From: Roseibium sediminis
GTDB lineage: Bacteria > Pseudomonadota > Alphaproteobacteria > Rhizobiales > Stappiaceae
NCBI RefSeq assembly: GCF_008711325.1
Contig: NZ_VXDB01000002.1
Location: 248,001 to 312,000, forward strand
Length of the DNA: 64,000 nt
Reading direction: 5' to 3'
The notes under the pieces were generated by a model. That model was not told where the DNA came from. It made no database searches and saw nothing but the letters and a program-made list of their open reading frames with translations. Positions 40,031 to 46,931 of this stretch are shown here, one piece after another. How positions within the stretch are numbered: the stretch's first letter is position 1; every line of letters begins with the position of its first letter. Both the position numbers and the translations under genes were made by a program.

Positions 40031-41869
40031 TTGAAGACCAAACTCAAAATCGTACCCACCCTGTCCACCGTGATAGGCACGTTTGTGTTCCTGACGTCTG
40101 CGCTGATCCTTTTCGTGGAGTTCCGGGCTTCACAGAAGCTGTTGCGAGACCTGGGCAGCGAGTTGATTGTCGAAACGGTCTCCAGTCTGGGGCTGTTCCT
40201 TGATACGCGTGGGCAGGATGTGGAGGAACAGGCGGGTTTCATTGCAACATCGATAGAAGCCGGCAGTCTGCTTCTTGAGAACAGACAAACGGTCGCCTCT
40301 TTCATCTACGGGGCCATGGCCGGTACGCCGCAGACCTCTGACATTTGGGTCGTTGATCCCGATGGAAACGCTGTCGGTGTCGAACAGGGAGATGCAGATG
40401 GCATTTTTGCGCCCCTGCTTGTTCACATCGACAATCTCCCCCTCCTGAAACCCATATTTGAAGAAGCCCGGACATCCGAAGGAGCCTTCTGGACCGATCC
40501 GATCTACTTCACCGAGCGTGGACAGACCTATTTCATCTTTGCCGATCCGGTGCGTGGCAAGGACACGTTTCTGGGACTTGTTCTCGTCATGGTGTCGATA
40601 AGCCAGGTCTCGGAGGTTGCAGCACAATTGTCGGACGATGATTTCACGGTGTTCATGACGGCGGAAAACCTGCTCATCGCCCATCCGGATATCGAGGAAT
40701 CGCTTGTCAATCTCTCGTCAGCAAAACCGTTTCCGCTGCTGGAAGAAGCGAGCGATCCTTTCATCGCCTCCTTCAAGCAGCTCGAGCGACTGGATAACGA
40801 AACCTATGGCCTTGAAGACAACTACGAAGTCTATTTTGGAAATGCGCCCGGAGGCGACAAGCGCTTCATGGTGCTCCAGCGGCCGGTCAAAGGCGACTTT
40901 TCAGATGTGACGGTAGGCGTTCATTTTGACGCTGCGCTTTTTGGCCAACCTTTCCTGCAATTGATCGAAGCCGCCCTTCTGGCGCTTGCCATTCTTGTCG
41001 TCGCGCTGGTGTGTGCGGTTTTCCTTGCCAAGTGGATTGCGCGCCCCATTCGCCGGGCAGCCTTCGGAGCCCGGCAGGTCGCCGATTTTGACCTGGAGGC
41101 GGTTCAGTCGCTGCCTGCCAGCAAAATTCGCGAGCTTGATGACCTTGCCTCCGGCTTCAATGCCATGGTGGAGGTGCTGCAGGCCTTTGTACGTTATGTC
41201 CCGCGCAGCCTTGTCCGGCGCATCATGTCCGAAGGGCGTGACATTTCAGCCCCGACCGAACGCCAGCTGGCTGTCCTTTTCACCGATATTGCGGGTTTCA
41301 CTTCGGTCTCGGAAAAGATGGGAGCCGTTGAGACAGCGGGCTTCATCAACCATCACCTCGGTCTTGTCGGCAATGCGATTGAAGCCAATCACGGAACAAT
41401 CGACAAATATATCGGCGACAGCGTCATGGCCTTTTGGGGCGCCCCGGAACATGTTGACCATCCCGAGCGACTGGCCCTGTCTGCTGCTCGTTCGATCGCA
41501 ACTGCCATTCGGCAAGACAATGCGACCCGCCAGACAAAAGGGCTTCCGCCGGTGCGTATCCGCATCGGCATTCATGTCGGGCCTCTGGTGGTTGGTGATA
41601 TCGGCGCGCCGGGCCGGGTCAACTATACGGTGATCGGCGACACGGTGAATATCGCTTCAAGGCTCGAAAGCCTCGGACGCGATGTTGATCCTGATGCGGA
41701 CGTCATGATCCTCGTCTCGCGCGAGGTGATTGCAGACCACTCGAATGCAGACCTGACCATGGAAGACATCGGCGACCGCGCCGTGAAGGGCAAGGATCAG
41801 GCCGTGCATGTGGTACGGGTTTTGCCCGAAGCCGAAACTGCCCGCTTTTCAGCGGACAGTTTTACTTGA
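40031..41869 (+). CDS. Membrane-bound class III adenylate/guanylate cyclase
   Basis: 612 residues from a TTG start (no ATG is available before the first membrane helix). TM1 at about 10-30, a periplasmic Cache-like sensor (about 35-305), TM2 at about 310-335, HAMP (about 335-385), then a class III cyclase domain (about 405-600). Metal-binding Asp is in VLFTDIAGFT and the second in KYIGDSVMAFWG. The substrate and transition-state residues lie around NYTVIGDTVNIASRLE. The Lys before YIGD and the Asp in IGDT favour ATP over GTP. A CNMP-gated antiporter is encoded 18 kb away. Confidence 0.9.
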   Translation: MKTKLKIVPTLSTVIGTFVFLTSALILFVEFRASQKLLRDLGSELIVETVSSLGLFLDTRGQDVEEQAGFIATSIEAGSLLLENRQTVASFIYGAMAGTPQTSDIWVVDPDGNAVGVEQGDADGIFAPLLVHIDNLPLLKPIFEEARTSEGAFWTDPIYFTERGQTYFIFADPVRGKDTFLGLVLVMVSISQVSEVAAQLSDDDFTVFMTAENLLIAHPDIEESLVNLSSAKPFPLLEEASDPFIASFKQLERLDNETYGLEDNYEVYFGNAPGGDKRFMVLQRPVKGDFSDVTVGVHFDAALFGQPFLQLIEAALLALAILVVALVCAVFLAKWIARPIRRAAFGARQVADFDLEAVQSLPASKIRELDDLASGFNAMVEVLQAFVRYVPRSLVRRIMSEGRDISAPTERQLAVLFTDIAGFTSVSEKMGAVETAGFINHHLGLVGNAIEANHGTIDKYIGDSVMAFWGAPEHVDHPERLALSAARSIATAIRQDNATRQTKGLPPVRIRIGIHVGPLVVGDIGAPGRVNYTVIGDTVNIASRLESLGRDVDPDADVMILVSREVIADHSNADLTMEDIGDRAVKGKDQAVHVVRVLPEAETARFSADSFT

Positions 41870-41885: not shown

Positions 41886-43472
41886 TTATCGAACCAGAAT
41901 GTTCTTGAACTGCCACGGGTCGGAGAGATCGAGATCCTCCGGGAAGAAGCCCGGGCGGCCGTCCAGCGGGGTCCAGTCGGTGTAATACCCGTTGACCGGT
42001 CCGAGATACGGCTTCTGGATTTCAAGGCAGCGCCGGAAGTCCATCTCGTCGGCTTCGACGATCCCTGCTTCCGGGTTTTCCAGTGCCCAGACCATGCCCG
42101 CCAGCACCGCAGAGGTCACCTGCAGGCCGGTCGCGTTCTGGTACGGGGCCAATTTGCGGGTTTCCTCGATGGAAAGCTGGGAGCCATACCAATAGGCGTT
42201 CTTGCCGTGGCCATAGAGCAGGACACCGAGCTCATCGGTGCCGTCCTGAATTTCGCTTTCATCCAGAACGTGGAGCTTTTCCTGGATCTTGCCTGCGGAG
42301 CCGAACATCTCATGCAGGGAAAGAACGGCCACATTTGCCGGATGATAGGCATAGTGGCAGGTCGGCCGGTAGGCGAAGTTCTTGCCTTTCTTCACGGTGA
42401 AGTAGTCCGCAATCGAGATCGACTCGTTGTGGGTGACAAGAAAACCGAATTGCGGTCCCGGCGTCGGGCACCAGGTGCGCACGCGGGTGCTGGCGCCCGG
42501 CTGCTCCAGATAGATCGCGGCCTTGCTGCCCTTCTTGTGCTTTTTCGCGTTTTTCGGCTTCCACTTTTCGTGGGTACCCCAGCCCAGTTCAGCTGGCTGA
42601 AATCCTTCCGACAGAAACCCTTCAACGGACCAGGTGTTCCAGAAGGCATCCATCGGCTTGGGGGAGTTGGCACGCTGGGTGTCGCGTTCGGCAATGTGGA
42701 TACCCTTCACGCCGACGGTCTGCATGAGCATGGCCCAGCCCTTGCGGCTCTGGGGCATGTCGAATTCCAGACCGCTTTCAGCAGCAATATCGACAAGGGC
42801 CTGCTTGACGAACCAGGAAACCATCCCCGGATTGGCGCCGCAGCAGGATACGGCCGTCGTTCCACCCGGACGCTTCTTCTTCTCCTTGCGAACGGTTTCG
42901 CGAAGAGCGTAGTTGGTGCGGGCAGCAGCGGGAGCGGTTTCGTCGAAATAGAAGCCGAGCCAGGGTTCAACGACCGTGTCGATATACAGAACGCCCAGCT
43001 TGCGGCACAGCTTCATCAGATCCAGCGAGGAGGTGTCGACCGAAAGGTTGACCACAAATCCCTGCCCTTCGCCTTCTGTCAGCAGCGGGGTCAGGATGTC
43101 CTTGTAATTGTCAGGCGTCAGCGCAACCTGCTCGAAGCGGTAGCCTCGATCGGTTACCAGCTTTGCATCGGTGTCGACAGGATCAATGACGGTAAAGCGC
43201 GACTTGTCGAAGTCGAAATGACGCTCGATCAAGGGAAGCGTTCCCTTGCCAATGGAGCCCAGACCGATCATCACCAGCGGTCCGGTGATCGTTCCGTGCT
43301 TTGGCCAGACCTGAGCCTTGGGTGCGGCTTTGCCCGGTTTGCGCGCTGCCGACTTCTTGGCAGCAGCCGGTTTCCGCTTGGCAGGTGCCGGTTTTGCCGG
43401 ACTTGCTTCGGCCTTGGCTCTTACTGGCCTGGCCCTCCCCGCGGTCACCGTTTTTCCGGTTTCTTCGGTCAT
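41886..43472 (-). CDS. hss: Homospermidine synthase with basic N-terminal extension
   Basis: 528 residues; bacterial enzymes are usually about 470-480. The NAD+-dependent enzyme joins two putrescines (or putrescine and spermidine) to homospermidine in the cytosol. The Rossmann motif VMIGLGSIGKG, the conserved TTAVSCCGANPGMVSWFVKQ and the C-terminal FKNILVR region support the call. The first about 53 residues are Lys/Ala/Pro-rich (SPAKPAPAKRKP, AAKKSAARKPGKAAPK), like the tail of histone H1. Start ATG with AGGAG 6 bp upstream. It lies 144 bp downstream of the GNAT gene in the polyamine cluster. Confidence 0.95.
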   Translation of the reverse strand: MTEETGKTVTAGRARPVRAKAEASPAKPAPAKRKPAAAKKSAARKPGKAAPKAQVWPKHGTITGPLVMIGLGSIGKGTLPLIERHFDFDKSRFTVIDPVDTDAKLVTDRGYRFEQVALTPDNYKDILTPLLTEGEGQGFVVNLSVDTSSLDLMKLCRKLGVLYIDTVVEPWLGFYFDETAPAAARTNYALRETVRKEKKKRPGGTTAVSCCGANPGMVSWFVKQALVDIAAESGLEFDMPQSRKGWAMLMQTVGVKGIHIAERDTQRANSPKPMDAFWNTWSVEGFLSEGFQPAELGWGTHEKWKPKNAKKHKKGSKAAIYLEQPGASTRVRTWCPTPGPQFGFLVTHNESISIADYFTVKKGKNFAYRPTCHYAYHPANVAVLSLHEMFGSAGKIQEKLHVLDESEIQDGTDELGVLLYGHGKNAYWYGSQLSIEETRKLAPYQNATGLQVTSAVLAGMVWALENPEAGIVEADEMDFRRCLEIQKPYLGPVNGYYTDWTPLDGRPGFFPEDLDLSDPWQFKNILVR

Positions 43473-43616
43473 TTGGTACTCCTGCTATGTCACTCAGCCG
43501 GGCTGACAAACCCTGGCATCCTGTCGCTGACGTCCTTCTGGAAAGGTGCGTTGTTTCCGATCACCGGATACAACGCTGTCTCACTGTCATATACAACTTC
43601 GCAATTCAGTCGGCTA

Positions 43617-44168
43617 TCACAGCCGATCGCCAATTTGCGAAAAGCGATCCTGATCTGTCGCCAGACCGGTCTGTGCCATCTCGCCTGCCGCCTGCAGCAC
43701 GCCGCAAAGGGCAGCAGATGCCCCTGCCCGCAAGTCAAGCGCAAGGAAGCGGTGCCGGTCAACCGGGCCGGGAAGGTCCAGATTAGCCAGCAGGCCACCG
43801 CGGAAACCGAAACGAACATAGTAGTTCGGGTCTCCCACGAGGATGACAGAGCGATGGCCGAAGACGGCAGCCTGGTTCAGGGCGTGACGCATCAGCCGGT
43901 CGCCGACCTTCTGGCCACGCAGGGCCGGGTCCACAGCCAGCGGGCCCAGCAACAGGCAGTCCGTGCCGTCCTCGTCGCGGACGGCCCACAGGCGAACGGT
44001 CCCCACAAGGGTGCCGTTTTCATCCAGCGCGCTGTAGGCAAAGACCGGCAGGCGGCCTTCACGTAGCCGCTCGCTGGTTTTCAGATGCCGATCGGGACCG
44101 AAGCTCAGGTCGAGCAGGGCCTCACGGACGCCGGTGTGAGCCGGCACCTCATCAACAATCGTAACCAT
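43617..44168 (-). CDS. GNAT N-acetyltransferase (YhbS-like)
   Basis: 183 residues. GNAT core with the acetyl-CoA loop ALRGQKVGDRLMRHAL (Q/RxxGxG-type) and the late VGDPNYYVRFGFRGG, the pattern of the YhbS/COG3153 group. It lies between ornithine decarboxylase (11-bp gap) and homospermidine synthase on the same strand, so a polyamine or ornithine-related acceptor is a reasonable guess, but nothing in the sequence shows it. The last about 45 residues (DRHRFLALDLRAGASAALCGVLQAAG) are Ala-rich and less conserved. Confidence 0.85.
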   Translation of the reverse strand: MVTIVDEVPAHTGVREALLDLSFGPDRHLKTSERLREGRLPVFAYSALDENGTLVGTVRLWAVRDEDGTDCLLLGPLAVDPALRGQKVGDRLMRHALNQAAVFGHRSVILVGDPNYYVRFGFRGGLLANLDLPGPVDRHRFLALDLRAGASAALCGVLQAAGEMAQTGLATDQDRFSQIGDRL

Positions 44169-44179
44169 GACCCTGGTTC

Positions 44180-45310
44180 CTAGATCACGTAGGAGGCGAG
44201 CGGCGCGAAGCCGTTGAAGCCCACTGTCGAGTAAGTGGTGGTGTAGGCGCCGCAGGCTTCGATCAGGACCTTGTCCCCGATGGACAGGCTGACCGGCAGC
44301 TCATAGGGCGTCTTCTCGTACATCACATCGACGCTGTCGCATGTCGGACCGGCCAGAACACACGGAGCAGTCAGGTCCCCGTCCTTCGGGGTCCGGATCG
44401 GATAGCGGATGGCTTCGTCCATGGTTTCGGCCAGCCCGTGGAACTTGCCGATGTCCAGATAGACCCAACGCACTTCATCCTCGGCGGACTTGCGGGAAAT
44501 CAGGACCACTTCGGCCTCGATCATGCCGGCATTACCAACCATGCCGCGGCCCGGCTCGATGATGGTGGATGGCAGGCGATTGCCGAAGTGTCTGGTCAGC
44601 GAACCAAAAATGGCAGCCCCATAGGTCGGTACGCCCGGAACATCCTTCAGATAGCGGGTGGGGAAGCCCCCACCCATGTTGACCATCTTCAGTTCGATCC
44701 CGCGAAGCGCCATTTCCTTGAAGACCCCGGCTGCCATGGCGAGAGCGAGATCCCAGGCTTCGAGGTTGGCTTGCTGTGAGCCGACGTGGAAGGAGACGCC
44801 GTGTGCGAAGAGGCCGAGTCGGTGGGCGTGTTCGAGCACGTCCGGGGCCATAGCTGCATCACATCCGAATTTTCTTGAAAGCGGCCATTCGGCTCCGACA
44901 CCGTCACACAGGACGCGGCAGAAGACGCGGCTTCCAGGCGCAGAACGGGCAATTTTTTCGACTTCTTCGACACAGTCCACGGCAAAGAGGCGGACCCCGT
45001 ACGCGTAAGCTTTGGCAATGTCCTTCTCCTTTTTGATGGTGTTGCCATAGGAAATTCTGTCGGCGGAAGCGCCGGTTGCGAGAACCATTTCGATTTCGCC
45101 GACCGAGGCGCAATCGAAGGACGAGCCAAGACGCTCCAACAACGCCAGGATTTCCGGCGCCGGATTGGCCTTGACTGCGTAAAAAACGGAAGTGTCCGGC
45201 AGGGACCGGGCAAAGGCGTGATAGTTTTCGCGCACAATGTCGAGATCGACGACAACGCAAGGGCCGTCTTCGTCGCGTCGGCGAAGAAACTCGCGGATAC
45301 GTTCGCTCAT
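44180..45310 (-). CDS. odc: Ornithine decarboxylase (group IV, alanine racemase fold)
   Basis: 376 residues from the ATG at 45310 (GGAAGGGG upstream). Type III PLP-dependent decarboxylase: Lys47 in YAVKANP forms the Schiff base, followed by FDCASVGEIE, FHVGSQQ, NMGGGFPTRY, EPGRGMVGNAG and the catalytic Cys region LAGPTCDSVDV. It makes putrescine from ornithine, and some homologs also take lysine. It is the first gene of the odc-gnat-hss cluster and is preceded by a long structured leader. Confidence 0.95.
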   Translation of the reverse strand: MSERIREFLRRRDEDGPCVVVDLDIVRENYHAFARSLPDTSVFYAVKANPAPEILALLERLGSSFDCASVGEIEMVLATGASADRISYGNTIKKEKDIAKAYAYGVRLFAVDCVEEVEKIARSAPGSRVFCRVLCDGVGAEWPLSRKFGCDAAMAPDVLEHAHRLGLFAHGVSFHVGSQQANLEAWDLALAMAAGVFKEMALRGIELKMVNMGGGFPTRYLKDVPGVPTYGAAIFGSLTRHFGNRLPSTIIEPGRGMVGNAGMIEAEVVLISRKSAEDEVRWVYLDIGKFHGLAETMDEAIRYPIRTPKDGDLTAPCVLAGPTCDSVDVMYEKTPYELPVSLSIGDKVLIEACGAYTTTYSTVGFNGFAPLASYVI

Positions 45311-45911: not shown

Positions 45912-46931
45912 TCAGGCGACCTTGCCGACGACCTTTTCCATCAAGGGTTCCAGCAAGGGATGGATGTTCGGGCTTTCCTCGTGGATGAAGCGCAAAAGAG
46001 CCTTCTCGTTCTCGTGAAGGATGCCGTCCCGGCCAATGCGATCCACCAGCCAGCGGGCTTCCGATTCCGTGACCACTTCGTTGGCGGCAATTTCCTCTGC
46101 CAGTCGGGCGGTCCTTTCGGCTGCCGGGTCCCTTGTGAGGTCATTATAGGCGTCACGCGCGGTGGACGTGCTCGCGCCGACCATGGATTTGAAGAACCCG
46201 CTTACCCCGCCGTCAAACCCGCCTTCCTGGGAAAGCCAGTTCTCACGCGCCAGAGCTACTTCTCGCGAAGGAGGTGTGAAGCCGGAAAGCCCCATCAGGA
46301 AGTTTGCAACAGCCTTGGCAAACAGCTCGGACCACGCTGGTGCATTGTCTGCCTCGGCGGTTGCGTCATTGATGTCGAACAGGATTTCAGCTTCCTCGCG
46401 GGAGATCGCAATGCCGCCGCCATTGGCTCCGGCATAGAGGATCTGGCGGATCAGCTCGACCTCGGCATCGGAAATGACACCGGGCTTCAGTTCCTTGCCC
46501 GACCGCGTCGTGCAGGCACCATGGATCACGGAATCCTTCACCGCCTCCAGCGCAAACAGCTCAAGGGATTTTGGCACCGAACGCGCCACATCCATTATCT
46601 TGAGGATCGCATCCAGTTCAGTTGGCGTGCAGATGTGATCATCCCGGGTAATCGCGGCAATCAACCAGTTCGACTGGTCCTCGGTCACATACCCGGCGGG
46701 CTTCATCTGATGCACCACAAAATCGGCAAGCGCTTCGGGAAACAGGACGCTCCATGCCGGGTCCGCATCGGATACATTTTCGTTCAGGTACAGAAGCGCT
46801 TCGGCCTCTTCCTGACTGACAACACTCTGTGCATCATAGATTGTTCGCCGCAGGCGAAAAACATCATCAGTCGTGATACGGTTTGAGCGAATAATCTCGT
46901 CGATCAACTGCCCCAGATTTTCCTGTTTCAT
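45912..46931 (-). CDS. Hypothetical protein with four helical repeats
   Basis: 339 residues; I do not recognise a family with certainty. No signal peptide or membrane segment, so cytosolic and acidic. It consists of four related units of about 60-75 residues, starting near 19, 82, 150 and 287. Each reads: V/I-T/S-x-(D/E)-x(3)-L-(I/V), then a hinge, then (Q/N)EEAEALLYLNE-like helix (SREEAEILFDIND, ENEKALLRFIHE), and a terminal helix (LFPEALADFVVHQM, LFAKAVANFLMG, LMEKVVGKV). This arrangement resembles TerB-like or EF-hand-like helical modules but lacks calcium loops. A Ser/Gly-rich linker follows unit 3. It is followed by a hairpin terminator. Function unknown. Confidence 0.8.
   Translation of the reverse strand: MKQENLGQLIDEIIRSNRITTDDVFRLRRTIYDAQSVVSQEEAEALLYLNENVSDADPAWSVLFPEALADFVVHQMKPAGYVTEDQSNWLIAAITRDDHICTPTELDAILKIMDVARSVPKSLELFALEAVKDSVIHGACTTRSGKELKPGVISDAEVELIRQILYAGANGGGIAISREEAEILFDINDATAEADNAPAWSELFAKAVANFLMGLSGFTPPSREVALARENWLSQEGGFDGGVSGFFKSMVGASTSTARDAYNDLTRDPAAERTARLAEEIAANEVVTESEARWLVDRIGRDGILHENEKALLRFIHEESPNIHPLLEPLMEKVVGKVA

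Follow-up and report, generated by a model that had tools for sequence, protein, structure and literature searches.

The 64-kb stretch of Roseibium sediminis DNA analysed here (the window) carries a complete homospermidine synthase (HSS) gene, in whose product a short linker joins a Lys/Ala/Pro-rich N-terminal tail to the catalytic core (Table 1). The core contains two Pfam domains above cut-off, Sacchrp_dh_NADP (PF03435; residues 67-208) and Sacchrp_dh_C (PF16653; residues 212-496), and a phmmer search matched residues 56-528 to the HSS of Blastochloris viridis (PDB 4PLP; E 5.2e-235); no NCBIfam family matched the ORF at E 0.001. The B. viridis chain has no tail and aligns only from residue 56, which confirmed the claim of a sequence-only reading of this DNA that the enzyme is otherwise ordinary and normally about 50 residues shorter. 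The pocket residues of the B. viridis enzyme, given in passages of PMC4725965 as Asp94, Glu117, Trp229, Glu237, and His296, correspond to D146, E169, W281, E289, and H348 of R. sediminis HSS (a constant offset of 52). Their equivalents were kept in 35/35 genus HSS genes examined, a set that includes L010, whose tail is cut by a contig end, and leaves out the split gene L175. The enzyme core is otherwise normal by these marks, and the tailed HSS is predicted to synthesise homospermidine from putrescine with NAD. In the AlphaFold2 model of R. sediminis HSS (mean pLDDT 80.3; the other four models, 59-79), pLDDT was below 50 at tail residues 1-15, 17-24, and 26-52, most ten-residue blocks of the core exceeded 80, and residues 503-511 were low too. 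The tail is predicted from this model to be intrinsically disordered.

Table 1. Features of the HSS locus of R. sediminis (window coordinates)
Feature	Position	Strand	Remarks
Adenylate/guanylate cyclase with HAMP domain	40031-41869	+	Convergent with the HSS gene
Homospermidine synthase (HSS) ORF	41886-43472	-	528 aa, complete; tail, linker, and core
HSS catalytic core, residues 59-528 and stop	41886-43298	-	Pfam, B. viridis HSS match, pocket residues
Linker AQVWPK, residues 53-58	43299-43316	-	Between tail and core; in tail-less HSS its counterpart (e.g. MTTWPV) is the entire N-terminus
Histone-H1-like N-terminal tail, residues 1-52 (MTEETGKTVTAG... KAAPK)	43317-43472	-	Net charge +12; predicted disordered
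HSS start ATG	43470-43472	-	Opens the 528-aa ORF
Shine-Dalgarno AGGAG	43479-43483	-	6 nt 5′ of the HSS ATG
GNAT-family acetyltransferase	43617-44168	-	Pfam PF00583 above cut-off; in the HSS cluster, 5′ of HSS
PLP-dependent decarboxylase, ornithine/DAP/arginine type	44180-45310	-	Pfam PF02784 and PF00278; 5′ of HSS
339-aa ORF	45912-46931	-	No Pfam or NCBIfam match at E 0.001

The decarboxylase is, on its putative substrate, the likely source of putrescine for HSS. A copy 89.6-90.7% identical to it lay 5′ of HSS in seven of eight named Roseibium loci (L090-L097, which were dropped from the counts below as duplicates of genomes already counted), and a GNAT gene in six of them; L097 gave no GNAT hit, and the sequence of L096 begins inside the tail. 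A cyclase hit was also present near HSS in five of the eight. Acetylation of the tail lysines by the adjoining GNAT was considered and set aside, since the tail-less HSS of Microvirga (L102) likewise has a GNAT hit about 1.5 kb 5′ of it, and the association is thus independent of the tail.

Residues 1-52 contain 15 Lys and Arg (K, 0.19; R, 0.10) and only three Asp or Glu, with Ala and Pro at 0.29 and 0.13. The description of the N-terminus as dominated by Lys, Ala, and Pro was therefore confirmed, and its likening to histone H1 is supported by the residue composition and the net charge. The span assigned to the tail in the sequence-only reading, 43310-43472, takes in all of these residues but runs on to residue 54. 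The HSS ORF was ranked among all 132 window ORFs that run for 150 aa or more from stop to stop. When K+A+P was counted in any 50 aa with at least 8 Lys, the HSS ORF ranked top (34; next, 21), whereas by net charge alone it did not (14 vs 15-17 in seven other window ORFs). Conservation of the tail in all readable members of the genus, described below, is stronger evidence against chance than this ranking. No tandem repeats were found in the R. sediminis tail, and the AAKPAA codon pattern had no match at all in the R. sediminis genome. A secretion or membrane signal was set aside, as the tail, judged from its sequence, lacks a hydrophobic stretch. Salt adaptation as the reason for the tail was dropped, because an acidic composition is the usual tendency of proteins in cells with high internal salt.

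HSS was found in 36 of 45 Roseibium (Labrenzia) genomes, and every HSS gene with a readable 5′ end carried the tail (35/35); L010 was left out of this count, with 76 tail residues visible ahead of the linker. In the G020 genome the HSS gene appears to be split between two places on one contig, on opposite strands (L175 and L288; G020:C16), through a rearrangement or an assembly error. The genus tails span 52-410 residues ahead of the linker (median 197), the shortest being that of R. sediminis, and have net charges of +10 to +92. Across the 35 genus tails, each additional residue brought about 0.22 of net charge, in a linear relationship (r = 0.99). Since tail length differs nearly eightfold between species of the genus, no precise length is required. 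With 20-29% K+R, 24-49% A, and 9-17% P, the genus tails form a long K/A/P-rich, nearly acid-free repeat region. Outside the genus, HSS was found in 22 of 42 genomes of the family, and a clearly basic leader (at least 10 residues, net +4 or more) preceded the core at 10 of the 22 loci. Six further leaders had net charges of +3 to 0 (16-42 residues besides the linker), those of L180 and L182 were net negative (26 residues each), that of L189 had only 6 residues, and L177 and L178 (genomes G047 and G045) had none; L176, whose start is doubtful, was kept in these counts. Whether relatives share the tail, a point raised by the sequence-only reading, was thus answered in the affirmative for the genus and for part of the remaining family.

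The tails of the 35 genus genes open with a conserved head (MTDD in 19, MTDE in 14, MSDE in one, and MTEE in one, R. sediminis), the start picker having given extra weight to MT[DE][DEN] starts. The start codon was ATG in 31, TTG in three, and GTG in one, and GGAG or AGGAG lay 5′ of it in 34/35. Four of the 35 tails have no ATG, GTG, or TTG between the conserved start and the core, and in R. sediminis the sole in-frame internal start is a GTG located 50 residues ahead of the core with no Shine-Dalgarno match. We also calculated dN/dS for the 24 closest gene pairs, which are not mutually independent. The values were 0.06-0.61 for the tail (computable in 22 pairs) and 0.015-0.078 for the core, and the tail was less conserved than the core in every pair; the value of 0.61 came from a very close pair, L172/L173, with few changes. 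Since the head and the ribosome-binding site are conserved, some tails lack any internal start, and dN/dS is below 1, the tail has the character of translated protein sequence under looser constraint than the enzyme, and it is very likely translated. The earlier expectation of translation from a good ribosome-binding site therefore held, and a protein beginning near residue 50, which would have told against the tail, is unlikely. It is by the same token scarcely probable that the tail is an annotation artefact with the real start near the core. Genus cores do contain GTG, TTG, or ATG codons at positions 8-10, GTG lies inside many tails, and AAGG precedes an internal GTG in four tails (L009, L013, L024, and L175) and, as a weak match, one of the internal ATGs present in 5/35 tails (L025). 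However, starts at core positions 8-10 would, judging from the AlphaFold2 model, delete the first Rossmann strand, and the conserved head with its ribosome-binding site, the synonymous-rich divergence, and the tails devoid of internal starts speak against such an artefact.

A tree was constructed from 63 HSS cores, with L010 and L175 left out; 34 of its 60 inner branches were well supported. Leader length along the tree was 0-2 residues in the outgroups and mostly 16-51 in other family members, 52-108 in the early Roseibium branches and R. sediminis, then about 140-270, and 257-410 in a nested group of 12. The tail lengthened gradedly within the genus. The tail-less L177 and L178 adjoin a tailed relative (fork support 94/64), and their lack of a tail may be a loss. 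In the two longest tails scanned, tandem arrays had periods of 12-135 nt (including 12, 24, 42, 84, and 123 nt), all divisible by three, with copies matching at 60-88%; a tail of 201 residues contained two short 15-nt arrays. Such diverged in-frame arrays are as expected of old in-frame duplications.

Selection on tail charge was evaluated from single-base codon differences in seven close pairs, which were hand-picked from the 24 and unpolarised, so that gain and loss of charge are indistinguishable. There were 318 synonymous, 126 neutral-neutral, 12 K/R-neutral, 11 K-R, 4 neutral-D/E, and no K/R-D/E differences, with 137 codons bearing more than one difference left out. Aligning repeats for best identity could understate amino-acid change, so tails evolved in a neutral simulation were put through the same realignment. 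The observed/expected ratios were 0.29 for neutral-neutral, 0.26 for K-R, 0.12 for K/R-neutral, 0.10 for neutral-D/E, and 0.00 for K/R-D/E differences, of which about 42 were expected. The gap-free pair L002-L006 alone gave 32 synonymous, 15 neutral-neutral, and 3 K/R-neutral differences and none involving D/E. These ratios to the realigned simulation indicate that selection acts on the tail, most strongly against switches between charge classes, and that charge is kept more strictly than sequence.

In the genus, codon use was more even in the tail than in the core (Lys AAA, 0.53 vs 0.24; Ala GCA, 0.28 vs 0.11), as for weak codon selection or selection against long DNA repeats. A Lys/Pro-rich leader with less biased codons might shift ribosome speed with the polyamine supply and thereby regulate the synthesis of HSS rather than its location, a scheme that the conserved head and GGAG at the start would also suit. 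We consider this very unlikely, since a model based on codon speed has no need of a conserved charge class and the stall motif PPP is absent from the 35 tails scanned (the cut tail of L010 included, L175 excluded).

Tails were sought beyond the family as well. None was present at the 112 HSS loci read in other families of the same order, of which 111 are distinct (L078 and L131 share core DNA, and one was dropped); 40 of the 112 came from the order survey and 72 from named records, whose order was judged by the record names. At these loci the core was preceded by 5-11 residues, most often 6 or 8. In other families of the class, one of 37 loci read by the nearest ATG had a tail, and the start of that one (L248) is doubtful. 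Four loci (L241, L242, L246, and L252) were removed from the class set as belonging to the order of Roseibium, without being added to the 112, and L281 as identical with L310, a locus of the alphaproteobacterial family f118. The surveys found HSS in 159/297 genomes of the order, 84/385 of the class, and 51/299 of the phylum; the tail reading covered part of these loci, among them a set of 20 picked chiefly for long open frames, and none of the new loci of the phylum survey. Open frames as long as 500 codons lie 5′ of HSS in other families (e.g. L240 and L191); they were rejected as tails because most have a Shine-Dalgarno start at the core. In f118, HSS was present in 71/75 genomes, and a short basic leader, e.g. 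MAKKTARKPSTKK or MARTAKKAAAPARRKVAGKAAGAAKAAYRK, in 29/30 loci read, although it reached at least 16 residues in only 4/30. The f118 cores are about 55-57% identical to that of R. sediminis. Since nearly all f118 loci read have leaders, the cores are diverged, and the other families of the Roseibium order have no tails in the loci read, a probable independent gain (convergence) is suggested for f118 as a simpler reading than repeated loss.

These data bear on the possibility that a short leader was merely expanded by well-tolerated in-frame duplication, constraint serving only to keep it soluble and disordered. The diverged in-frame repeats in the two longest tails scanned, the large length differences between species with the graded lengthening on the tree, the unusually even codon use, and the leaders that in some family members are near neutral or acidic would all fit such growth. 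We nevertheless regard it as rather unlikely, because tail dN/dS is below 1 wherever computable (22/24 pairs), selection is strongest on charge class and does not simply act against hydrophobic residues, all readable genus genes have kept the tail, and a second gain elsewhere is probable.

A high-scoring hit to nspC (carboxynorspermidine decarboxylase) was found in 16 of the 36 HSS-bearing genus genomes, and tail length, compared by eye, did not split clearly by this hit. The R. sediminis genome had no high-scoring nspC hit, its only one being at E 4.5e-9. Eight of the nine Roseibium genomes without HSS had a high-scoring hit (389-413 bits); the curated cut-off of 409 bits was passed by two of these eight and by 8/45 genus genomes overall. 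The genome G030 had neither HSS nor a high-scoring nspC hit. Separately, a protein with about 200 C-terminal residues of KPAAAK-type repeats was encoded by L273 (G004:C53:39500-43500, minus strand) and by L319 in G043. Its N-terminal part was found in only these two of 45 genus genomes, both with short HSS tails, and had no Pfam family above cut-off.

Polyamines exert most of their effects in the nucleic-acid-bound state, yet their synthases are treated as freely diffusing, a picture with which a synthase carrying its own polycation contrasts. With slightly better than even confidence, we propose from sequence and analogy that the HSS tail tethers the enzyme electrostatically to nucleic acid or some other polyanion, as has been put forward for the KPAA-repeat proteins AlgP and PhaF, with feedback by polyamine. 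The DNA or RNA binding suggested by the sequence-only reading would follow from the composition of the tail, the selection on its charge, and what has been published on KPAA-repeat tails. The disordered polycation would hold HSS on DNA of the nucleoid, on rRNA or mRNA, or on polyphosphate, so that the triamine might be made at the sites of putrescine accumulation and homospermidine action. Homospermidine would compete with the tail for the same phosphate sites, and rising polyamine could thus loosen the tether, providing a simple electrostatic feedback. A non-specific polyanion tether would be expected to look like these tails, i.e. disordered and acid-poor, with charge selected and sequence and length drifting. 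By its composition the tail should bind polyanions of any kind, acidic membranes among them, which singles out no partner. Several facts count against the tether: the R. sediminis tail is the shortest and has no AAKPAA match, only 10/22 family leaders are clearly basic, tail dN/dS reaches 0.61 in L172/L173, the tail is kept less well than the core in every pair, and its length varies nearly eightfold.

The tail might instead act as a pseudosubstrate plug, a tail lysine entering the acidic mouth of the pocket and inhibiting HSS until a polyanion or other cations free it. Lysine, like putrescine, carries an aminobutyl group (its side chain), and the pocket residues are kept in R. sediminis HSS and 35/35 genus genes examined. 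Passages of PMC4725965 describe the entrance and path of the B. viridis pocket as strongly negative (Asp94, Glu117, and Glu237) and the pore as about 4 x 5 Å when open, and that paper also has a reference to a ball-and-chain block of human deoxyhypusine synthase. One or a few lysines would be enough for a plug, however, and a length of up to 410 residues would be superfluous, which makes this reading quite improbable in our view. Aminobutyl transfer to a primary amine is the chemistry of HSS, and on a protein lysine that of deoxyhypusine synthase. We give only a very slight chance to the idea that HSS transfers the aminobutyl group of putrescine onto its own tail lysines, which would give side chains resembling deoxyhypusine and a brush of protein-bound polyamine; if this were true, HSS itself would set the charge density of the brush.

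The tailed HSS offers a direct route to testing whether cells make polyamines on their polyanions and sense that synthesis through them, for which the natural series of tail lengths (0, about 30, 52, 200, and 400 residues) provides ready-made variants. No report of such an HSS tail was found among the matches listed by a full-text search of open-licence literature, and one may exist elsewhere. What appears new is that a known metabolic enzyme, HSS, carries an H1-like, charge-selected tail in every readable member of a genus, and that such a tail was probably gained more than once, the second gain being shorter.

According to passages of PMC9239181, KPAA-repeat peptides and a fragment of AlgP bind DNA, and the composition of the KPAA repeats is likened there to the histone H1 tail. 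Pseudomonas AlgP and PhaF, as described in those passages, resemble the tailed HSS in having a K/A/P-rich repeat tail joined to another domain, but they bear the repeats at the C-terminus and are not metabolic enzymes (PMC9239181). Since the HSS tail is N-terminal, it may be said to work like the AlgP/PhaF type rather than to be a member of it, low-complexity repeats precluding a test of descent. The genus tails have a repeat region of the AlgP/PhaF type, whereas the R. sediminis copy is short and without tandem repeats or AAKPAA. The chlamydial protein Hc2, as described in PMC2848022, likewise has lysine-rich repeats and varies in size by duplication and deletion of repeat elements; unlike the HSS tail, it is a stand-alone DNA-binding protein and not the tail of an enzyme (PMC2848022).
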